Assembly (NCBI GenBank): GCA_020723345.1
Contig: DYJA01000049.1
Location: 1 to 48,454, forward strand
DNA length: 48,454 bases
Source: Candidatus Aquidulcis sp.
GTDB lineage: Bacteria; Chloroflexota; Anaerolineae; UBA4142
Direction of reading: 5' to 3'
The translations under genes were made by a program, and so were the position numbers. Position 1 is the stretch's first letter; the number at the start of each line of letters is the position of its first letter. This document shows, piece by piece, positions 6,459 to 34,802 of the stretch. The notes under the pieces were generated by a model that worked only from the letters and a program-made list of their open reading frames with translations, was not told where the DNA came from and searched no databases.

Positions 6459-7233
6459 ATTGCAAACCGCGCTCGGCGTCGCATTCAAAGACAAATCGCT
6501 GTTGACGCGCGCGCTCACACACCGCTCGTATCTCAACGAGAATCCCGATCTGCCGTACCTCGACAACGAGCGGCTGGAATTTCTCGGCGACGCCGTCTTG
6601 GATTTTGTCGCGGCGGAATTTTTGTATCAGCGTTTTCCCGAAATGAGCGAAGGCGATCTCACGTCGCTGCGCGCCGCGCTCGTCAAGGGCGATACGCTCG
6701 CGCGCTTTGCGATTGACCTGGGTTTGCCGCAGCACTTGTTGATGTCGCGCGGCGAAGAAGCCGCGCGCGGACGCGAACGCGCGCCGCTCCTCGCCGGCGC
6801 GTTCGAAGCGTTGATCGGCGCGCTGTACCTCGATCAGGGACTCGGCGCGGCGCGCGCGTTCGTCTTGCGCTTTCTGCCTGCCGAATCGGAACGCGTGCAC
6901 GCGCTCCGGCTCGACCGCGACGCAAAAAGTATGCTGCAAGAATTGAGTCAAGGCAAATTGCAGATCACGCCGCAGTATCGGCTGGTCGAAACGCGCGGCC
7001 CCGATCACGCGAAGGATTTTACGATTGCGGTGTTTCTCAATGAACAGGAGTACGGACGCGGGGTGGGGCGGAGCAAGCAGATCGCGGAACAAGAAGCCGC
7101 GCGCGTCGCGCTCGAAAATCTGCAAGCCGAGATTTCGCGCGAGGATCACGCGGTACTCATCGCGCTCAAGGGGCAGGTGACTGAGCCAAGTCAATCAGGC
7201 GACCAGTCCATCAGTCCATCAGTGAGTCAGTGA
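6445..7233 (+). CDS. rnc: Ribonuclease III
   Basis: RNase III cleaves double-stranded RNA in rRNA maturation and mRNA turnover. The 262 residues show the signature [22 protein letters not shown], the second metal-binding [15 protein letters not shown], and a C-terminal dsRNA-binding domain (about residues 160-230: [19 protein letters not shown], then [20 protein letters not shown]). I take ATG 6445, overlapping the end of fabF, because canonical RNase III begins about here ([11 protein letters not shown]). The longer frame's N-terminus is a fabF shadow. The last residues ([17 protein letters not shown]) are encoded by the intergenic CAGTCCAT/GTCAGTGA word repeat, so the original stop has probably been displaced. 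Confidence 0.95.
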
Positions 7234-7288
7234 GTCAGTGGGTCAGTCAACCAGTTGCCTAATTACCCGATTGCCTGACCATTCGATT
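7180..7288. repeat. Word-repeat spacer (AGTCAGTG and CAGTTGCCTAATT words)
   Basis: Repeated CAGTCCATCAGTCCATC, GTCAGTGAGTCAGTG and ACCAGTTGCCTAATTACC words fill the end of rnc and the spacer. The second half resembles the spacer at 47588-47656. Confidence 0.7.
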
Positions 7289-8191
7289 ATGCGACTATTA
7301 ATCACCGGCGGCAGCGGTTATGTCGGCGCGGGAATTTTGCGCCGCGCGCCGCAAGAATGGAAAATCGCGGCGACGTATTTCGCTCATCCGCTTGAACCGT
7401 CAGGCGTTGCCGCGTTTCGCGTTGACATCCGCGACACAGACGCGGTTAATCGGCTGTTTACCGAATTTCGTCCCGATGTCGTCATTCACACTGCCGCGCT
7501 GATGGCGGGCGATGAAATGATGGCGACGAACGTGGACGGCTCGCGTCACGTCGCGCGCGCGGCGATGCGATCCTTCGACTCTGCTGGCGCTCCGCTCAGG
7601 ACGCGTTTGATTCACCTGTCGAGCGATGTGATCTTCGACGGCGAGCACGCGCCGTACGACGAAGACGCCGCGCCCGCGCCGCTCACGCCGTACGGCGAAT
7701 CGAAAGCGCGCGCGGAACAAGGCGTAACCGCAGAACACGCGAATCCGATTATCGTCCGCACGTCGCTCGTGTACGGTTTCGCGCCGATGGATCCGCGCAC
7801 GCGCCAAACGCTCGACGGCGCGATGCCGCGTCTCTTCACCGACGAGTATCGCTGCCCAATTTTCGCTGACGATCTCGCGGACGCGCTGATCGAACTTGCT
7901 GGTAGTAGGCGATTCATCGCCGACCCTCGCGCTGAAGCGCACACTACGAATGCGCTCTCTGTCCTCAACATCGCGGGACCGCAGCGATTAAGTCGCTATG
8001 AATTCGGCGTCAAACTCGCGCGCGCGTTCGGCGTCGCGTCGCGCTTTCAGCCCGCGCTCAGCGCGTCGAGTCCCACGCCGCGTCCGCGCGATTGCGCGCT
8101 CGACATCACGCGCGCGCAGCAGATTTTGAAAACGCGCTTGCAAAGTGTGGATGCAGTGTTGGCGCAGACAAGCGCGCGGAGTAATGGATAA
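7289..8191 (+). CDS. NAD(P)-dependent sugar-nucleotide reductase, RmlD/RfbD-like (SDR family)
   Basis: A 300-residue extended short-chain dehydrogenase/reductase. It has an N-terminal Rossmann motif (MRLLITGGSGYVGAGIL), the catalytic serine region LIHLSSDVIFDG, then PYGESKARAE holding the YxxxK tyrosine and lysine. The pattern best fits dTDP-4-dehydrorhamnose reductase-like proteins that make activated deoxysugars. The rest of the rml pathway is not present, so the substrate is uncertain. Start ATG 7289 gives the canonical N-terminus. Two segments look foreign: residues about 94-105 (SFDSAGAPLR) and 205-221 (SRRFIADPRAEAHTT). Both are encoded by palindromic repeats found elsewhere in the window. 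The stop TAA overlaps the next gene's ATG (TAATG). Confidence 0.8.
   Translation: MRLLITGGSGYVGAGILRRAPQEWKIAATYFAHPLEPSGVAAFRVDIRDTDAVNRLFTEFRPDVVIHTAALMAGDEMMATNVDGSRHVARAAMRSFDSAGAPLRTRLIHLSSDVIFDGEHAPYDEDAAPAPLTPYGESKARAEQGVTAEHANPIIVRTSLVYGFAPMDPRTRQTLDGAMPRLFTDEYRCPIFADDLADALIELAGSRRFIADPRAEAHTTNALSVLNIAGPQRLSRYEFGVKLARAFGVASRFQPALSASSPTPRPRDCALDITRAQQILKTRLQSVDAVLAQTSARSNG
7570..7603. repeat. Palindromic repeat inside the RmlD-like gene (CCTTCGACT...CTCAGGACG family)
   Basis: The segment opens with ATCCTTCGACT and ends with CCGCTCAGGACG. The same ends occur, in reverse orientation, at 39761-39794 and 44062-44093 in spacers. It is read in frame as SFDSAGAPLR. Confidence 0.7.
7902..7950. 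repeat. Palindromic repeat inserted in frame in the RmlD-like gene
   Basis: GTAGTAGGCGATTCATCGCC, then a GCGCT-GAAGCGC arm and CACACTACGAA. The reverse complement of 32370-32421 carries the same blocks in the same order. It is read as residues about 205-221. Confidence 0.85.
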
Positions 8192-19142: not shown

Positions 19143-21254
19143 ATGAAAAAGAGCAATGCGCCAGGCGCGCCGGGAGGCGATGAAAAACCGTATAGTTCTG
19201 ACGGCGCGGGCGCGCCCGCGCGCAAAATCAATCCCGATTTAACGATCGCTGAAATCAAGCACGGTGTTCGCCCCGGCGATGTCTACGTCCGGATGCGCCA
19301 GCCGCACAGCCACATTTTTCGCAAAGTCGGTCCCGGACATTTTGTCGCGACGCCCGCGTCGGATGTGCCGACGAGTTCGTGGGAGCGCGGCTATCGCCTG
19401 CTCAAGAAAATCTTGGTTGGGCGTCCGCTGGAGACAGCCGAAGAAATTCACCAACGACTTAATAAAGTCAAATCGCTCGCGGTGTTTGGTTCGGACGCGA
19501 TTTCGTCGAGCGCGTACGCGACCGAAGCCGCGCTCATCGTTCTGGTGGCGGCGGGCAACGGCGCGCTCGGCATCGTGTTTTACACTTCGATTGCCATCGC
19601 GGTCATGCTTTCGATCATCGCATTCTCGTACCGGCAAACGGTGTACGCTTATCCGCACGGCGGCGGCTCGTACAACGTCAGCCGCGAAAATTTGGGCACG
19701 CTGCCGGGCTTGATCGCCGCGTCCGCGCTGCTGATCGATTACGTGCTGACCGTGGCGGTTTCCATCGTCGCGGGCTCCGCCGCCGTGATTTCCGCGCTGC
19801 TCGCGTCGGGCTATGCTGAACAGATCGAAGCGCTCGAAGCCGCGATGCCGGCGTTTCTCAATCTGAACGTCGTCCTGAGTTTGTTCTTCATCGGCTTGAT
19901 CACGTTGGGCAATTTGCGCGGCATTCGCGAATCGGGAACGATTTTTGCGATCCCGACGTACTTGTTCATCGTCAGTCTCAGCGTGATGTTGCTCGGCGGC
20001 TTGTTCAAAGCGTTCACCGGGACGCTGCACCCGGTCACGCCGCCGCCGCTGTTGCCGATCGTCGAGCCGTTGGGCGCGTGGCTGATTCTGCGCGCGTTCT
20101 CCGCGGGCGCGGTGGCGATGAGCGGCACCGAAGCGATTTCCAATGGCGTGCCGGCGTTTCAGAAACCGGAATCGCACAACGCGGCGACGACGCTGACGGT
20201 GATGGCAACGCTGCTCGGCGCGTTCTTCCTCGGCGTGTCGTTCCTCGCGACGCGGATGGGCTTGGTGCCGGGTCAAGAGACGATCATTTCCCAAGTCGCG
20301 CTGGCGGTGTTTGGCGCGTCGCTGCCGTACTATATTTTCCAAATCGCGACGACCGGCATTCTCGTGATCGCGGCGAACACGGCGTTCGTCGATTTTCCGC
20401 GTTTGTCGTCCGTATTGGCGCGCGATAATTTTATGCCGCATCAGTTTTTGTTTCGCGGCGATCGGCTGGCATTCTCGACCGGAATTTTCGCGCTCGGCGG
20501 CATCGCCGCGCTCCTCGTCATCGCGTTCGAGGGGAGCGTTGATAGTCTGATTCACCTGTACGCTGTCGGCGTGTTTCTCGCGTTCACGCTGTCGAATTCC
20601 GGAATGGTCGTCCATTGGTGGAAACTGCGCGGACCCAACTGGCAGACGAGTCTGGTGATCAACGGCGTCGGCGCGAGTTTGTCTGTGATTACACTTGCGA
20701 TTGTTGCAGTGACCAAGTTTGCGCTCGGCGCGTGGATCGTCATCGTCTTGATTCCGATCATCACGTCACTTTTCCTCTTCGTCCACACGCATTATTCGCG
20801 CGTTGCCGAGCAACTTCGCATCGTGCCGACGCAACTCCCGCCGAAGAAGATCGATCAACTGGTGGTCGTGCCGATTGACGACGTGAATTACGCGTCGCTG
20901 CGCGCGATGGCGTTCGCGCGCACGATCTCTTCCGACGTCGTCGTCTTGCACATTTCGACGAATGTCGAGCGGACGGAGAAAGCGAAAGAAAAGATGCGCG
21001 CGTACGCGCCGGATTTGAAAATGATCGTCGTGGATTCGCCGCTGCGCGCGTTTGTGCGCCCGCTGCTGGCGTACGTCGACGCGGTGCACAGCCAACACCC
21101 GAACGCGTTCGTCACAATCGTTTTGCCGGAGTTTATCACCGCGCACTGGTGGGAAAGTTTTCTGCACAATCGGACGGCGGCGCGTTTGCGGAGCGCGTTC
21201 GAAAGGCATCCGAACGTCGCGGTGGTTCTCGTCCCCTATTTGCTGGAACGATGA
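19143..21254 (+). CDS. APC-superfamily permease, KimA-type potassium/amino-acid importer
   Basis: 703 residues. A soluble N-terminus (about 1-110) leads into KVKSLAVFGSDAISSSAYATEAAL, which is characteristic of KimA/YdaO-like transporters. About twelve transmembrane helices follow, then a C-terminal soluble domain (about 560-700: KKIDQLVVVPIDDVNYASLRAM) that resembles a universal-stress-like domain. B. subtilis KimA is a proton-coupled potassium importer inhibited by c-di-AMP. Related proteins carry amino acids, so the substrate is not proven. Transcription starts from a strong promoter and passes an attenuator-like hairpin. A bidirectional terminator follows the stop. Confidence 0.85.
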   Translation: MKKSNAPGAPGGDEKPYSSDGAGAPARKINPDLTIAEIKHGVRPGDVYVRMRQPHSHIFRKVGPGHFVATPASDVPTSSWERGYRLLKKILVGRPLETAEEIHQRLNKVKSLAVFGSDAISSSAYATEAALIVLVAAGNGALGIVFYTSIAIAVMLSIIAFSYRQTVYAYPHGGGSYNVSRENLGTLPGLIAASALLIDYVLTVAVSIVAGSAAVISALLASGYAEQIEALEAAMPAFLNLNVVLSLFFIGLITLGNLRGIRESGTIFAIPTYLFIVSLSVMLLGGLFKAFTGTLHPVTPPPLLPIVEPLGAWLILRAFSAGAVAMSGTEAISNGVPAFQKPESHNAATTLTVMATLLGAFFLGVSFLATRMGLVPGQETIISQVALAVFGASLPYYIFQIATTGILVIAANTAFVDFPRLSSVLARDNFMPHQFLFRGDRLAFSTGIFALGGIAALLVIAFEGSVDSLIHLYAVGVFLAFTLSNSGMVVHWWKLRGPNWQTSLVINGVGASLSVITLAIVAVTKFALGAWIVIVLIPIITSLFLFVHTHYSRVAEQLRIVPTQLPPKKIDQLVVVPIDDVNYASLRAMAFARTISSDVVVLHISTNVERTEKAKEKMRAYAPDLKMIVVDSPLRAFVRPLLAYVDAVHSQHPNAFVTIVLPEFITAHWWESFLHNRTAARLRSAFERHPNVAVVLVPYLLER

Positions 21255-21297
21255 AAAAACCAGGTTTCTCCCCTTCGGGGAAACCTGGTTTTTTCGT
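21253..21297. terminator. Bidirectional rho-independent terminator
   Basis: GAAAAAACCAGGTTT pairs with AAACCTGGTTTTTTC, and an inner CCCC-TTC-GGGG stem sits above a 2-nt bulge. T runs on both strands serve the convergent permease and beta-helix genes. Confidence 0.9.
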
Positions 21298-21299
21298 CG

Positions 21300-26533: not shown

Positions 26534-27907
26534 CTATACCATCCACAACTCTGTTAGCGTCGCCGCGTCCGCGCACGCGTCGAGCGACCAGACCGCGTCG
26601 CGCAGCGCGCGCGATTTTTCTGGCGACAGGCGTCCCGCGACGTTCGTTGCAAACTTGGCGATCACTTCATCGTCCGTCATCGGATTGCGCGCGTGTCCGC
26701 GCGGATAGCGCACCGTTTGCGACAGCGTGCGACCATCGTTCAGCGTCACCGTGATCGTGTTCGGAATTCCGTCCGGGTAACCGGCGGTCAGGTCCGCTTT
26801 TTCCGCGAGCGTCGTGTGTTTCGCCAAAAACTCTTGCGTGCGCGGCGAGCGGATGCGCGCGAGATCGAACGACTTGTCGGTGATTTCGCCGTCTTGTAGC
26901 GCGACGAGGGTGATGTACTGAATCGAATGATCGGCGGTCTCGCGCGTTTTGGGCTGCCACTTTTCCGGATCTTTGGCGATGATTTCGTAACTTGCTTTGA
27001 ACGTGTCAATGTGAACCGACGCGATTTCCGCGCCGCGCAGTTGCGAATGAATTTCAAGCGCGGCGTCGACCGCGCTCTGCGCGTGATACTCGACCGGATA
27101 TTTTTTGATGTACGTGTCGAGGATGCGGCGCGGCGCGTCTTTGTTTTCGAGCGACGCGAGTTTGGCGCGGTCGAACGGCGCGTGCGTGAGCAATTCGCAG
27201 AAACCCATTTCGCCTTCAAACGGCTGAAAGGGTCCCGCCATTCCCTTTTCCGCGAGGAGCGCGGCGAAGATCGCGTTGCGGCTGGAGTTTGCCGCCGCCG
27301 CGCCTTTCCACATCGAGAGTTCACCCGCGCGCGTTTGGCGCATCGCCGCGTGCGGCACGGTCGCGATCGAGAGCGCGTGCTCGGTTTGCGCGCGATTCAG
27401 ATTCAACAATTTTGCCGCGCCCGCCGCGACCATAATCGCGATATAGTTGACGTGATCCCATTTGTGCGCGCGCAGACTCGCCGCGTCGCACAGATTCACG
27501 CCGATTTCGTACGCGAGCGCGATCGCGGTGATGAGCGCGCGCCCGGACGCGTGGCGCGTTTCCGCCAGCGCGAGCAGCGCGGGGATCACGTCGGAAGGAT
27601 GCAGCGGTTCGAGCGAGAGGTACGTGTCGTTGTAGTCGAGATAGCGCACGAGCGCGCCGTTCGCGAACGCGGCAAGATCAGGCGTCGTGCGCTGCGGCGT
27701 GCCGAGAATGGTCGCGCCGTTTGGAATCGGCGCGTCGAACGCGAGCGCGCGCGCGGCGCGCGCGGTGTCGCTGTCGAACGCGGCGAGCGCGACGCCGAAC
27801 GAATCGAGAACGCGACGTTTGACTTCGCGCGCGACCTCCGGCGCGAGATCGGCGTAATCAACCGCCGCGACGTAATCGGCAAATAAACGCGAGATGTTGT
27901 CGCTCAT
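26534..27907 (-). CDS. MmgE/PrpD family dehydratase/decarboxylase
   Basis: 457 residues covering the two-domain MmgE/PrpD fold. Start ATG 27907 gives MSDNISRLFADYVAAVDYADL. Core markers are RRVLDSFGVALAAFDSD, ALVRYLDYNDTYL, EPLHPSDVIPALLALAE (the H-P-SD segment) and HYSIQYITLVAL-like DHSIQYITLVALQDG. Members include 2-methylcitrate dehydratase and cis-aconitate decarboxylase, both acting on tricarboxylic acids. Placed with a citryl-CoA-lyase-like gene and TctABC, it probably dehydrates or decarboxylates an imported tricarboxylate. The exact substrate is an open question. Confidence 0.85.
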   Translation of the reverse strand: MSDNISRLFADYVAAVDYADLAPEVAREVKRRVLDSFGVALAAFDSDTARAARALAFDAPIPNGATILGTPQRTTPDLAAFANGALVRYLDYNDTYLSLEPLHPSDVIPALLALAETRHASGRALITAIALAYEIGVNLCDAASLRAHKWDHVNYIAIMVAAGAAKLLNLNRAQTEHALSIATVPHAAMRQTRAGELSMWKGAAAANSSRNAIFAALLAEKGMAGPFQPFEGEMGFCELLTHAPFDRAKLASLENKDAPRRILDTYIKKYPVEYHAQSAVDAALEIHSQLRGAEIASVHIDTFKASYEIIAKDPEKWQPKTRETADHSIQYITLVALQDGEITDKSFDLARIRSPRTQEFLAKHTTLAEKADLTAGYPDGIPNTITVTLNDGRTLSQTVRYPRGHARNPMTDDEVIAKFATNVAGRLSPEKSRALRDAVWSLDACADAATLTELWMV

Positions 27908-27921
27908 CGTGTCACCAAAAT

Positions 27922-27956
27922 CAGACTTCCGAAGTCTCGCAGACTTCGGAAGTCTG
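27922..27956. terminator. 16-bp perfect inverted repeat after tctA
   Basis: CAGACTTCCGAAGTCT (27922-27937), loop CGC, and the exact complement (27941-27956). It lies between the tctA stop and the PrpD start and may end or attenuate the tct transcript. No T tract is seen. Confidence 0.5.
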
Positions 27957-27962
27957 AATGCT

Positions 27963-29477
27963 TCACGCCGCCGCGCTGCGCCCAAACAGTTTTCGCCATC
28001 CGATTCCGATGTATTTCCAGTACGGATTTGTAATCGAGATGACCGCGAGGAGCAACAGGAAGAGCGAGATCGGGCGCGTGACGAAGATCGCCAGACTGCC
28101 GTCCGAGATCATGAGCGACTGCCGCATCGCTTGTTCCATCAAATCGCCCAAGACCATGCCGAGAATGATCGGCGCGGCAGGAATGTCGAGTCGCCGCAAA
28201 AAGTAGCCGATCACGCCAAAGCCGACCATCAAGAACAAATCCTGCACGCTGTTGTTCATCGTGTAAACGCCGAGGAACGAGAACAAAATGATGAACACCA
28301 TCAGCAAGTACAGCGGAATGTCGAGAATCTTGACCCACATTCCGACCAAGGGCAAGTTGAGCACGAGCAGCATCACGTTGCCGATGTACATACTCGCGAT
28401 CAAACCCCAGACGAACTGCGGATTTTGCACGAACAGCAAGGGACCCGGCTGCAAGCCGATCATCAACAACGCGCCGAGCATGATCGCCGTCGTGCCGCTG
28501 CCCGGAATGCCGAGGCACAGCAAGTGGATCATCGCGCCGCCCGCCGCCGCGTTGTTCGCAGCTTCGGGCGCGGCGACGCCTTCAATCGCGCCTTGCCCCA
28601 GTTCGTCTTTGTACTTGCACATTTTCTTTTCCAAGCCGTACGAAACGAAACTCGCGACGGCGGCGCCCGCGCCCGCGATGCCGCCGACAAAAAAGCCGGA
28701 GAGCGTGCCGCGCGTGAACGCCGGAATCGAGCGCTTCCAGTCTTCTTTGCTCATCCACAAGCCGCCCTTGATCTCCAGACGCTCTTGCACGGCTTGGTTC
28801 ATGTTGCACAGATTGACGATGACTTCGGACAGCGCGAACAGACCGATCGCCACGACCAAAAATTCGAGCCCGTCCAAAAGTTCAGGATTGCGGAACGTGT
28901 AACGCGGCACGCCGCTCTGCAAATCAATGCCGATCGTGGCGATCGCGAGACCGATCGTGGTCGAGAGCAGCGCCTTGACGAGCGAACGTCCGGCGAGACT
29001 CGTGACGACGGTGAGACCGGCGAACATCAACGAAAAATATTCGGGCGGACCAAAGTTCAGCGCGAACGCGGCGACCGCGGGACCGACGAGCATCAGCACC
29101 AACGTCGCAAACGTCCCGGCGATAAACGAACCGATTGCCGCCGCGGCGAGCGCGGGACCGGCGCGTCCTTTCTTCGCCATCTGATAGCCGTCGAAACAAG
29201 TCACGACCGACGACGATTCGCCCGGCGCGTTGACGAGGATCGACGTGGTCGAGCCGCCGTACATCGCGCCGTAATAAATACCCGCCATCAAAATGATCGC
29301 GGAAGTGGGTTCAAGTCCGAACGTAATCGGAATCAGCAGCGCGATGCCGGTCATCGGTCCGATGCCGGGCAGCACGCCGATAATCGTGCCGAGGAACACG
29401 CCGATAAAAGCGAGCACCAGGTTCATCGGCGTGACGGCGACGCCGAATCCGAGCGCCAAGTTATCGAAGAAATTCAT
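27963..29477 (-). CDS. tctA: Tripartite tricarboxylate transporter large membrane subunit TctA
   Basis: 504 residues with about 11-12 transmembrane helices. Diagnostic TctA segments are visible: IGVLPGIGPMTGIALLIP, AGIYYGAMYGGSTTSILVNAPGE (split here) and the second inverted half EAANNAAAGGAMIHLLCLGIPGSGTTAIMLGAL. TctA forms the sodium- or proton-driven channel that takes up citrate-like acids from the periplasmic protein TctC. I use ATG 29477 (MNFFDNLALGFGVA) with GGAGG upstream, 38 bp from the tctB stop. It forms an operon with tctC and tctB in the common order. Confidence 0.95.
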   Translation of the reverse strand: MNFFDNLALGFGVAVTPMNLVLAFIGVFLGTIIGVLPGIGPMTGIALLIPITFGLEPTSAIILMAGIYYGAMYGGSTTSILVNAPGESSSVVTCFDGYQMAKKGRAGPALAAAAIGSFIAGTFATLVLMLVGPAVAAFALNFGPPEYFSLMFAGLTVVTSLAGRSLVKALLSTTIGLAIATIGIDLQSGVPRYTFRNPELLDGLEFLVVAIGLFALSEVIVNLCNMNQAVQERLEIKGGLWMSKEDWKRSIPAFTRGTLSGFFVGGIAGAGAAVASFVSYGLEKKMCKYKDELGQGAIEGVAAPEAANNAAAGGAMIHLLCLGIPGSGTTAIMLGALLMIGLQPGPLLFVQNPQFVWGLIASMYIGNVMLLVLNLPLVGMWVKILDIPLYLLMVFIILFSFLGVYTMNNSVQDLFLMVGFGVIGYFLRRLDIPAAPIILGMVLGDLMEQAMRQSLMISDGSLAIFVTRPISLFLLLLAVISITNPYWKYIGIGWRKLFGRSAAA

Positions 29478-29492
29478 GATGCCTCCAACGTT

Positions 29493-29515
29493 GGACAAAT
29501 TTTAGAAATTTGTCC
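29493..29515. repeat. GGACAAATTT palindrome supplying the tctB stop
   Basis: GGACAAATTT (29493-29502), loop TAG, AAATTTGTCC (29506-29515). On the minus strand the flanking GTAG supplies the TAG stop of tctB. Confidence 0.8.
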
Positions 29516-30021
29516 TACAGTCCAAACCAGGAAAGGGGTCCGGCGGGCAACTGCACGCGCAATAGAAAAGTGAACGCAAAGTGCAGTCCAAAACTGATGA
29601 CCAAGCCAATGATCGCGTCGCGGACAAGGTGCCGGCGATCAAGGACGAGAACGCCCGCCATGAACATCAGGAACGTGGAGATGGGATAGCCCAGCCGCTC
29701 GAAGATGAAAGCGTAAATCAGCATCAGTCCCAACATGATTCCGACGGTCTTGACATCCACGTAACTGCTCAATTTTTCATCAGCCCCGATGAGGGCGGCG
29801 CGCGCTTCGTCTTCCTTGCTCATTCCGCGAAACGATTGGGCAACGTACGCCGCGGATAAGACGATCATCAAAATCCCGATCGCTTTGGGGAACGCGTCGG
29901 GACCGAGGATCTGCTTGGACGCGGGTTGACCGATGGTGAAAAAAGCCATCGCGAAATACGTGGCGGAAAAAAGAAGGAGGACCACGCTCGCGATGCGATT
30001 TTCCTTGACGTCATTACTCAT
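29515..30021 (-). CDS. tctB: Tripartite tricarboxylate transporter small membrane subunit TctB
   Basis: 168 residues with four transmembrane segments, the usual TctB size and layout (VVLLLFSATYFAMAFFTIG at the start; LGPDAFPKAIGILMIVLSA, matching the conserved GPxxFP turn; FERLGYPISTFLMFMAGVL). Its precise role is structural. Start ATG 30021 is preceded by GGAGGGATGAA. The longer frame to 30111 is repeat-derived (LGDCFVARNASRN) and rejected. Its stop codon belongs to the GGACAAATTT palindrome. Confidence 0.88.
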   Translation of the reverse strand: MSNDVKENRIASVVLLLFSATYFAMAFFTIGQPASKQILGPDAFPKAIGILMIVLSAAYVAQSFRGMSKEDEARAALIGADEKLSSYVDVKTVGIMLGLMLIYAFIFERLGYPISTFLMFMAGVLVLDRRHLVRDAIIGLVISFGLHFAFTFLLRVQLPAGPLSWFGL

Positions 30022-30066
30022 TTCATCCCTCCAACTCAACGCATTGCCAAGCGCAGATAGGGTTTT

Positions 30067-30155
30067 GTCATTGCGAGAAGCGTTTCTTGCGACGAAGCAA
30101 TCTCCGAGCAACTTGGATTGCTTCGTCGCACTCGCTTCGCGCTCCTCGCAATGAC
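30067..30155. repeat. GTCATTGCGAG palindromic repeat in the tctC-tctB spacer
   Basis: GTCATTGCGAG at the left and CTCGCAATGAC at the right enclose GACGAAGCAATC/GATTGCTTCGTC inner arms. This repeat type is widespread in several phyla. It could modulate tctC versus tctBA mRNA levels. Confidence 0.8.
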
Positions 30156-30184
30156 ACGAGTGCGCTTGGACTTGTACCTGCGAA

Positions 30185-31690: not shown

Positions 31691-32356
31691 CTACTTGACC
31701 AATCCGAGCCGAATCGCCTTGACGGCGGCTTGCGTGCGATCATTCGTGCCGAGTTTTTGCAGGATCGTGTGGGTGTACCCTTTGACGGTGCCGGGGCTCA
31801 AACTCAACACTTGCGCGATCGCTTGATTCGTCAAGCCCTCGACCATCAGCCGGAGGATGTCTTTTTCGCGCGCGGTCAGCGGCTCGGATGTCTCGAGCGG
31901 AATGTCTTTGCCTTCCGGTTCATTCTCCAAATTTCGCAAGACGCTCTGCAAGAACTGACTGTCGACCATCGAGACGCCGCTTGCCACGGCGTAAATCGCG
32001 GCGAGCAAATCTTCGCGCGCGATATCCTTGAGCACGAATCCAACCGCGCCCGCCGACAACGAGCGCAACAAGTACGTCGTACTGCGATACGTCGTGAGCA
32101 TAATCACGCGCGCGGACGATTTCGCGGTCTTGAGCGCTTCCAACGCCTGGATCCCGTCCATCCCCGGCATTCGAATATCCATCAGGACGATGGCAGGGTT
32201 GAGCGCGAGCGTCAATCGTACCGCTTCGTCGCCGTTGTTCGCTTCGCCGACGATTCGGACGCGCGGCGCGTTCAACATGCTCCGCAACCCCGCGCGCACC
32301 ATTGGATGATCGTCGGCGATGAGAAGGGTAATCTCCGAATTCAATTCACTGCTCAT
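31691..32356 (-). CDS. NarL/FixJ-family response regulator
   Basis: 221 residues: a receiver domain (about 8-125) with the acidic pair D15-D16, phospho-acceptor D60 in IVLMDIRMPGMDG and the conserved lysine in FVLKD, then a LuxR-type helix-turn-helix (about 155-215: LTAREKDILRLMVEGLTNQAIAQVLSLSPGTVKGYTHTILQKLG, in two parts). It is a DNA-binding activator or repressor controlled by the adjacent kinase. It is downstream of the kinase gene in the same operon and faces the tct operon. Control of tctCBA is a reasonable inference, but no operator has been identified. Confidence 0.93.
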   Translation of the reverse strand: MSSELNSEITLLIADDHPMVRAGLRSMLNAPRVRIVGEANNGDEAVRLTLALNPAIVLMDIRMPGMDGIQALEALKTAKSSARVIMLTTYRSTTYLLRSLSAGAVGFVLKDIAREDLLAAIYAVASGVSMVDSQFLQSVLRNLENEPEGKDIPLETSEPLTAREKDILRLMVEGLTNQAIAQVLSLSPGTVKGYTHTILQKLGTNDRTQAAVKAIRLGLVK

Positions 32357-32369
32357 CCGTACTCCTCTG

Positions 32370-32421
32370 TTCGTAGTGTGCGCTTGAGCGCGTGCTGCGG
32401 CGATGAATCGCCTACTACGAG
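32370..32421. repeat. Palindromic repeat between kinase and regulator genes
   Basis: TTCGTAGTGTGCGCTTGAGC ... GGCGATGAATCGCCTACTAC. This is the intergenic twin, in reverse, of the copy inside the RmlD-like gene (7902-7950). It also supplies the TAG stop of the kinase (32415-32417). Confidence 0.85.
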
Positions 32422-34739
32422 CTTATTAACGACGCAAGCGGCACGCGCACAGCGACTGTCGTGCCCTGCCCCGGCTGACTTGTGATCTCGCAAACGCCGC
32501 CGAGCATCCTGGCGCGCTCGCGCATACTGATCAGCCCGACGCGATCCGTCGCTTCCGCTAACGCGGCAAGATCGAAACCGCGTCCCGCATCTTGCACACT
32601 CAGCAGCAGATCGCCGCGGTCGGGCTGCAAGCGGACACAGAGCCAGTCCGTCGCCGAGTGCTTGCGCGCGTTCGTGAGCGCTTCTTGGGCGATGCGAAAG
32701 ATCGCGGTCTCGGCGGGTGGACTCAAACGCACGCCATCCAGGTTGATCTGCGTTTCGCAGCGCCAGCCCTCCGCCGCGCACGCCTCGATGACGAAACGGC
32801 GCAACCCATCCGCCAATCCCAGGTCTTCGATCACCGTCGGACGGAGTTCGGCGATAAAGCGGCGCGCCTCGTCAATCGCGCGTTGAATCAGCGCGCGACT
32901 TGCCTCCAACTCGCGCTGCGCGGGCGCGTCCACCGATTGGGCGATCATCGCGTTCAACGTGTTCAAGTGCATATTCGCGCTGATGACCAACTGCGTCAAG
33001 CCATCGTGCAAATCCAAGCCGATCAAGCGGCGTTCTTCGTCTTGAATCTGCGCCAACTTTTGCATCAGCGTCCGCACATGTTCCTCGCGCTCCGACAAAC
33101 TCTTGTACAGGTGCGCGTTGCCCAGCGCGACCGCGGCTTGATCGGTGAGGAGATTCAAGATGCGAACGTCTTCGCGCGTAAAAGTTCGCCGCGCGAGCGA
33201 CGAAATGCGCAGCACGCCTAGAACTTGGTCGCCCAGTTTCATCGGGAATGCGGCGGTCGAAGGCGCGTGCCAGTTGAACGTGTCGCTGGCTTCGTACAGC
33301 GGCTCCTGGATCGCGCCGTTGAGAACGTGCGGCTGACCGGTCGACGCGACGACTGCCATGAGACTGTCCGGGCGCGCGGTCGCCGGTTCCACGATGCCGC
33401 TCTGCCCGGCGCTAACGGCAAGCCGCAAAGTTCCGGTATCGTCGCGCGTAAAGATGTGAACGCTGGACGGTTCGACCAAACCCAGGACGCTCGTCGCAAT
33501 CGTCTTGAGCACTTGATCGAGATCGAGCGTGCTCGTGATCTGCAGCATGACCTGGCGCAGCGTTTCGAGTTCCGCCAGGCGCGCTTTCAGACGGCGCTCG
33601 CGCGTCGCGAGATCCGTCATCATGTTGTTGAACGCTTCCGCGAGTCGTTTGAGTTCGTCGGTCGTGCGAATCGAGACCGGTTGTTCGAGGTTGCCCGCCG
33701 CCACGCGATCCGCGCCGCGCAAGAGCGCCAGAATATTTTGGTTCATCCCGCGCGCGAGACGCGTCGCGATCAATGCGGCGAGCGCGGTCATCGCGATCGG
33801 GATCACGAGACTGACGAAGATCGCCGAGCCAGCCGCCGTCGCCAAATCTTGCTGCGCCTGCGCGAGTTTTTGCGCTTCGAGCGGCTGGATTTGCTCGACG
33901 ATCACGTTTTGACTGGCTTGGAAAATTTCGGCGAAAAAGCGCGCAAAGAGCGCCTGCTGCCGGTCGCGGTCGCTGATCAATTGCGAGCCGAGGTTTTGCA
34001 AAATGAGAAACGCCGCGTCGATGCGCTGAATGCCGCGCACTTCGGCGTCGCTCGTCGCGAGGCGGCGGAATTGCGTGAGGTTTTGCTGAAATTGAATCGT
34101 CGCGTTGGTGAACTGCCCGCGCGTGCTCTCGTCCGGCGCGGCGAGATACGCGGTCACCGCGAGCAACATCCCACGCGCGTTTTCGTCCATACCGTCAATC
34201 GCGCGCTGATAGATCGAGTCGGAGGCGCGCAGTGGCTTGAATTGTCCGGACAGCAAATTGGACAGCTGGGCGTGCGCGGCGATCAGCGCTTTCAAATCGT
34301 CGTTTTGCTTGTCGCGCAATCGGATCAGGTCTTTGCCTAGCCCGGCTGCTGATTGCTGTGTTTGCTCAAGCGCGTTTGCCCAACGCAGATCATTGGGGGT
34401 GGACGCGAGCGAACGGTACTCGGCGACGCTCGCGCCGAAACTCGCGATCTGCTCGTCGAACTGCGTGGCAAAACCGGACTCGCCCTCGAGGTAATAGCGA
34501 TAGAGCGCGGCTTCGGCGTTGCGAAGTTTTTCGTCCATTTCGACCGCGACCAATTGGCGCACACGCACGCGGTCGATGTCGGCGAGCGAAGCCGCAATCG
34601 AGCGGGCGAGAAAAAGGAGCGCGAGAATGTTGATGGCGACTGCCATGCCAAAGAGCAGCATCAACGCCATCAGGCGGGTTCGAATCCGCATATTTTCTAC
34701 GCGGTCGAACAATGTGCGGACAAGCCGGTTCAGTTTCAT
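32415..34739 (-). CDS. Membrane sensor histidine kinase (HAMP-GAF-HisKA_3)
   Basis: 774 residues. Two transmembrane helices (about 23-45 and 300-325) flank a largely helical extracytoplasmic sensor. A HAMP domain follows (ALLRGADRVAAGNLEQPVSIRTTDELKRLAEAFN, in parts), then a GAF domain (about 395-540) and a HisKA_3 dimerisation domain with phospho-acceptor H578 in LDLHDGLTQ. The ATPase domain ends in DAGRGFD and GLISMRERARMLGG. This kinase type pairs with NarL-type regulators, and such a regulator lies 58 bp downstream. Start ATG 34739 (MKLNRLVRTLF) is chosen over the longer frame. The ligand is unknown; a tricarboxylate would fit the context. The C-terminus LISS and stop come from the repeat at 32370-32421. 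Confidence 0.9.
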   Translation of the reverse strand: MKLNRLVRTLFDRVENMRIRTRLMALMLLFGMAVAINILALLFLARSIAASLADIDRVRVRQLVAVEMDEKLRNAEAALYRYYLEGESGFATQFDEQIASFGASVAEYRSLASTPNDLRWANALEQTQQSAAGLGKDLIRLRDKQNDDLKALIAAHAQLSNLLSGQFKPLRASDSIYQRAIDGMDENARGMLLAVTAYLAAPDESTRGQFTNATIQFQQNLTQFRRLATSDAEVRGIQRIDAAFLILQNLGSQLISDRDRQQALFARFFAEIFQASQNVIVEQIQPLEAQKLAQAQQDLATAAGSAIFVSLVIPIAMTALAALIATRLARGMNQNILALLRGADRVAAGNLEQPVSIRTTDELKRLAEAFNNMMTDLATRERRLKARLAELETLRQVMLQITSTLDLDQVLKTIATSVLGLVEPSSVHIFTRDDTGTLRLAVSAGQSGIVEPATARPDSLMAVVASTGQPHVLNGAIQEPLYEASDTFNWHAPSTAAFPMKLGDQVLGVLRISSLARRTFTREDVRILNLLTDQAAVALGNAHLYKSLSEREEHVRTLMQKLAQIQDEERRLIGLDLHDGLTQLVISANMHLNTLNAMIAQSVDAPAQRELEASRALIQRAIDEARRFIAELRPTVIEDLGLADGLRRFVIEACAAEGWRCETQINLDGVRLSPPAETAIFRIAQEALTNARKHSATDWLCVRLQPDRGDLLLSVQDAGRGFDLAALAEATDRVGLISMRERARMLGGVCEITSQPGQGTTVAVRVPLASLISS

Positions 34740-34773
34740 AGCGCAGCGTAACCGCCTCTCGGTCTCCAAGCGT

Positions 34774-34802
34774 ATGATACCGAAATCCAACCGATTCCGC
34801 AA
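34774..34802 (-). promoter_or_regulatory. Probable promoter of the kinase-regulator operon
   Basis: On the minus strand TTGCGG (34802-34797), 17 bp and TATCAT (34779-34774), 35 bp before ATG 34739. It is back to back with the translin promoter. Confidence 0.6.

Follow-up and report, generated by a model that had tools for sequence, protein, structure and literature searches.

The window analyzed here is a 48,454-nt stretch of DNA that constitutes one contig of a 6.34 Mb Chloroflexota genome (132 contigs; G000), and its features are listed in Table 1. Among them is a gene encoding an RmlD-like protein, which scores under the equivalog cut-off of TIGR01214 (rmlD) and the fold of which matches RmlD and MAT2B structures. 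Orthologs of this protein were identified in 11 relatives, with 55-70% identity over the whole alignment, and the named relatives recovered with it are Chloroflexi and Anaerolineales metagenome genomes. Outside a loop considered below, dN is 0.14-0.18 and dS 0.56-1.28, indicating that the gene is constrained by purifying selection. A degenerate TCAGTGAG tandem repeat is located just upstream of its start (7211-7255). The initial annotation had placed a 49-bp palindromic repeat inside this gene and an intergenic twin at 32370-32421. Both copies were recovered at these locations with a covariance model of the repeat family, but their ends were corrected to 7898-7951 and 32369-32422, spanning 54 nt each. 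No other place in the window exceeds 16 bits; the training set of the model included both window copies, and the family itself was defined genome-wide.

Table 1. Features of the RmlD-like locus and of the kinase/regulator junction in the window.
Feature	Position	Strand	Evidence
RmlD-like NAD-dependent sugar-nucleotide reductase/epimerase gene, 300 aa	7289..8191	+	PF04321 RmlD_sub_bind, E=6.5e-39
54-nt REPIN-like element, in frame, 18 codons (residues 204-221 within ..AGSRRFIADPRAEAHTTN..)	7898..7951	+	64.5 bits
Left terminal arm GCTGGTAGT (consensus GTTCGTAGT, GTAG head)	7898..7906	+	aligned copies
Hairpin 1, GGCGA-TTCA-TCGCC	7908..7921	+	
Hairpin 2, GCGCTGAAGCGC	7929..7940	+	
Right terminal arm ACTACGAAT (consensus ACTACGAAC)	7943..7951	+	aligned copies
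Response regulator, downstream of the kinase	31691..32356	-	93% and 86% identical orthologs directly downstream in G006 and G007
AGGAG Shine-Dalgarno-like sequence, intact just outside the element	32362..32366	-	
Twin of the element, intergenic (kinase/regulator junction)	32369..32422	-	72.2 bits
TAG stop of the histidine kinase, from the GTAG head of the element	32415..32417	-	
GAF/HAMP/HisKA_3 sensor histidine kinase ORF	32415..34802	-	Pfam; orthologs 76% and 70% identical

Alignment of copies from the whole genome defined a family unit of 54 nt, in which 9-nt inverted ends (GTTCGTAGT...ACTACGAAC) flank two hairpins. From left to right, the unit comprises GTTCGTAGT, a spacer base, the hairpin GGCGA-TTCA-TCGCC, a short variable spacer, the hairpin TGCGC-TNAA-GCGCA and ACTACGAAC. 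Copy sizes are mostly 44-56 nt, with a compact 44-nt form presenting overlapping hairpins also common; the ends are constant across genome copies, and the GTAG head is dominant among those found by the model. At five loci (L064, L069, L070, L072 and L109) the element is nested in a longer repeat, the arms of which are CAGAAACTTGCG...AAGTTTCTGGG. The inner core alone, allowing up to 2 mismatches, is not found above chance in the window, where GC-rich palindromic 12-mers are common. Hence, the significance of the element derives from its full structure, not from the inner core alone. An Rfam search of the window returned one tRNA only, the element matching no known structured RNA. Selection for stop-free frames was not apparent, with 2.98 open frames out of six in the element and 3.23 in shuffled sequence.

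The abundance of GC-rich palindromic 12-mers with 2 mismatches in the window could suggest that the similarity between the two copies is due to chance or to local duplication of a coding segment. The genome-wide counts refute this explanation and leave it practically no credibility. The exact core GGCGATTCATCGCC occurs 16 times in the genome, half-units with at most one mismatch 85 times and full pairs with exact ends 17 times, versus zero instances in each case for the reversed pattern. In all, about 59 distinct places carry the element according to the covariance model (E<=0.001), and the repeat is not a single-copy sequence but a dispersed unit in the form of an inverted doublet. Roughly nine of these copies lie in frame inside genes, as assessed by codon usage, so that the element is mainly extragenic and its in-frame intragenic fraction is far below the expectation from coding density (assumed to be ~85%). 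Beyond this genome, the model matches 8 of 20 genomes of the same order, all eight in family f1, and none of the 6 genomes of family f2; some genomes in the family of G000 itself are without the element. Across the class, exact outer ends separated by 26-46 nt were found in 43 of 298 genomes, with hairpins that covary freely, and the reversed control of this search produced a single match in each of three genomes.

Covariation was evaluated on 30 half-units hand-picked from the class outer-ends matches and from G000, requiring the head and a fixed stem length. These half-units present the TTCGTAGT head with a 6-bp stem, and 94% of stem cells are paired. Cells changed on both sides number 63 versus 22 in shuffles, with a covariation score of 0.89 versus 0.28, and the pairs include A-U/G-C and some G-U. 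In this set the 8-nt head is constant and the hairpin stems vary freely yet stay complementary; since the set was pre-selected for the head, only the stem pairing constitutes independent information.

The kinase/regulator junction provides an orthologous empty site. In G006 and G007, the kinase and regulator orthologs are present without the element and overlap by 11 nt, the regulator start overlapping the kinase stop (ATGAGCAGTGA). The kinase C-terminus reads ..QRRTDEQ* and ..QRSVNEQ* in these orthologs, versus ..ISS* in G000, where the TAG of the GTAG head (complement of 32415-32417) does give the kinase its stop codon, as the initial annotation had proposed. Relative to the empty site, the G000 junction shows a net gain of 57 nt that abolishes the overlap, and the AGAGGAG of the regulator remains. 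Judged from these alignments, the twin is clearly an insertion at the junction, and one that undoes an overlapping gene pair while leaving the ribosome site in place. The overlap in the relatives presumably gave translational coupling.

The RmlD copy is carried in frame, its 18 codons agreeing with the earlier estimate of about 17 residues. Orthologs without the palindrome also lack the corresponding segment: bare loops (LELATSGYSGIL, LELAQHEFVGVL, LELAGSGLTGIL) comprise 12 residues versus 26 in the host, and the proteins bearing them are about 14 residues shorter. In an AlphaFold2 model with mean pLDDT of 88.8, the insert sits between a helix (193-205) and a strand (225-227), and the sole stretch below 50 (residues 212-220) falls within the element-coded segment; the model thus places the landing site of the element in a flexible loop. 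The preserved frame and the constraint on the host gene could be taken as signs that the insert is an adaptive addition, but its prediction has the low confidence of a disordered loop and the corresponding position in orthologs is either bare or filled by unrelated sequence, making this reading very improbable. Most likely, the 18 element-coded residues do nothing useful.

Nine intragenic copies are open and share the same coding frame on both sides, according to a codon-usage test of their flanks. Besides RmlD, they are found in L061, L062 (PxpC-like, PF02626), L079, L080, L086 (in the linker between BTAD and NB-ARC domains), L087, L090 (CbiB, PF03186) and L101 (before the PEP-utiliser domain). 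Ortholog comparison covers RmlD, PxpC and CbiB, and the assignment of the other six is based on codon usage and an open frame. Three further candidates were dropped, one (L114) resembling an ordinary methyltransferase motif and two (L115, L119) being weak model matches. Odd inserts (SFRAQREI...SRND, EIRNSKFKI, SSFILHPSSF, HPERTLSEQSESKRESKDA) were also observed in ORFs of L079 (1366-3471), L087 (936-2855), L101 (3-1544) and L119 (1-1662), and suggest that the genome harbors more coding repeats.

G000 and G012 share the PxpC copy, which G013 and others lack. Between the two elements, paired positions differ at 1 of 38 and unpaired ones at 4 of 16 (Fisher p=0.023), against 18% of positions in the gene outside the element. 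This pattern, in a single case chosen after looking, is suggestive of retention of the palindrome and, as far as one case goes, the low change at paired positions counts against neutral filler. It is also what could be expected if the palindromes were kept for a role in RNA, such as mRNA stability, translational attenuation or termination, with coding copies being incidental. The strong stem covariation, comprising A-U/G-C and some G-U pairs, and the location of several copies shortly before a likely ribosome site and start codon point in the same direction. Recognition at the DNA level, however, would also give covariation, same-family genomes exist without the element and so do orthologous junctions, and we therefore regard an RNA role as unlikely.

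The loops that harbor these copies also carry other palindromes. Across twelve RmlD orthologs, at least four palindrome types are seen in one loop. The G012 loop has 52 residues, from a TGTCATTGCGAG...CTCGCAATGACA palindrome, short pieces resembling which are present in the loops of G013, G008 and G003; the G011 loop carries AGAAACCCGTTTTCT...AGAAAACGGGTTTCT and that of G009 carries GAGATTTCCGAAATCTCCAAGATTTCGGAAATCTC. In CbiB, the same loop contains the 54-nt family element in G000 and the TGTCATTGCGAG type in G012. These types recur within their genomes, of which 178-191 kb were sampled each: the TGTCATTGCGAG type many times in G012, the AGAAACCCGTTTTCT...AGAAAACGGGTTTCT type at two further places in G011, and the GAGATTTCCGAAATCTCCAAGATTTCGGAAATCTC core twice in G009. 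Comparison of the orthologs indicates that the RmlD loop is a permissive site, at which palindromes of several unrelated families have apparently landed in related genera. The net length change is +14 residues in RmlD, +11 in PxpC (versus G013) and about 0 in CbiB, which is less than the element and implies that the events were not simple insertions or that the loops were trimmed later. The small changes seen in CbiB and PxpC are more consistent with replacement than with plain insertion, and it is conceivable, if doubtful, that unrelated palindrome families replace one another at permissive loops in a palindrome-for-palindrome exchange, with a few loops acting as recurrent landing pads. Related palindromes were observed elsewhere in the window. 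A TGTCATTGCGAG...CTCGCAATGACA palindrome of the type seen in G012 RmlD and CbiB spans 30066-30156, a perfect 17-nt inverted repeat (TCAGACTTCCGAAGTCT/AGACTTCGGAAGTCTGA) resembling the G009 palindrome lies at 27921-27957, near the start of the ORF at 27894-29573, and an inverted repeat with AAACCAGGTTTCT arms (21249-21299) is like the AGAAACC...GGTTTCT palindromes of G011.

Taken as a whole, the element is probably a mobile palindrome of REPIN type, non-autonomous, the coding copies of which most likely sit idle in permissive loops. Its dispersal, its structure, the clean kinase/regulator insertion and the absence of target duplication are matters of observation. It consists of two GTAG-headed hairpin units in inverted orientation, the 9-nt ends of which also pair with each other, and would spread as one piece in the genomes of this clade of Chloroflexota. 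Given its structure and the REPIN literature, which are the basis for this step, it may move as single-stranded, hairpin-forming DNA through an enzyme acting in trans. Intragenic copies would survive only with the reading frame preserved and at sites in a flexible loop or linker. A copy read in its third frame, in whichever orientation, gets a TAG stop from the GTAG head, a stop that is harmless only at a gene end.

This reading has against it the small net length changes at coding sites and the failure to find a mobilizer. RAYT was considered as the mobilizer and rejected: no convincing unit was found in the fetched flanks of 32 PF01797 loci, with units thus showing no linkage to Y1 transposase loci in the family. 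Element and PF01797 do not track each other either, G011 having the element without PF01797, and G002, G005 and G007 having PF01797 without the element. This lack of RAYT linkage, together with a GTAG contained in a constant 9-nt terminal inverted repeat and stems that vary freely, would also suit a MITE with 9-bp terminal inverted repeats moved by a conventional transposase and unrelated to REP/RAYT biology. Most DDE-transposase MITEs, however, have a target-site duplication, and at the element copies, despite the terminal inverted repeats, no duplication beyond chance level was detected. The GTAG head, hairpin and inverted-pair architecture, moreover, match REPINs (PMC3733652, PMC3116915), and a MITE appears the less plausible origin, with a modest probability slightly above that of an RNA role.

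Compared with known repeats, the element is a REPIN-like pair of GTAG-headed palindromes and not a Rickettsia palindromic element. The likeness to the latter noted at the outset holds for in-gene behavior, as both are palindromes that occur in frame at tolerant positions of unrelated genes (Ogata et al. 2000, 2002, cited through PMC10969869 and PMC3733652), but not for kind. Tag and size rule out that family: the GTAG-headed inverted pairs described here are ~54 nt long, mostly extragenic and from Chloroflexota, whereas the Rickettsia elements are ~150 bp, CGTC-tagged and from a different phylum; REP units corresponding to RPE-4 and RPE-6 are CGTC-tagged and RPE-1 is longer (PMC3733652). A better precedent is provided by the GTAG REP dimers found inside genes in that 2013 paper, which reported intragenic GTAG and CGTC REPs, in-frame dimers of 20-30 residues, GTAG ends giving TAG stops and GTAG families in Chloroflexi. 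GTAG-tagged families share with the element the GTAG head and short hairpin, inverted dimers, compensatory stem variants, a mostly extragenic location with some in-frame intragenic copies, and TAG stops given to flanking ORFs (PMC3733652). They differ in that the GTAG is here inside a constant 9-nt arm (GTTCGTAGT) pairing with its partner, stems vary freely across the class and no linked transposase was found. REPINs (PMC3116915) are likewise inverted REP doublets dispersed as units, with hairpin potential and compensatory changes, but they were defined with nearby RAYT genes, a link sought here and not found, and the compact 44-nt form is also common here. A search of partial coverage found no literature combining Anaerolineae and REPs. 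Intragenic GTAG repeats having been reported in 2013, the kind is already known, and the unusual part is the promiscuous insertion loop. The analysis extends protein-coding palindromes to uncultured Chloroflexota, in which both empty and filled orthologous sites are at hand. Different REPs have been described near the same recB site in two Xanthomonas species (PMC3733652), a similar case in which different repeats occupy roughly the same coding position in species related to each other; here, at least four types in one loop across twelve orthologs form a natural series for measuring the cost and fate of such insertions.
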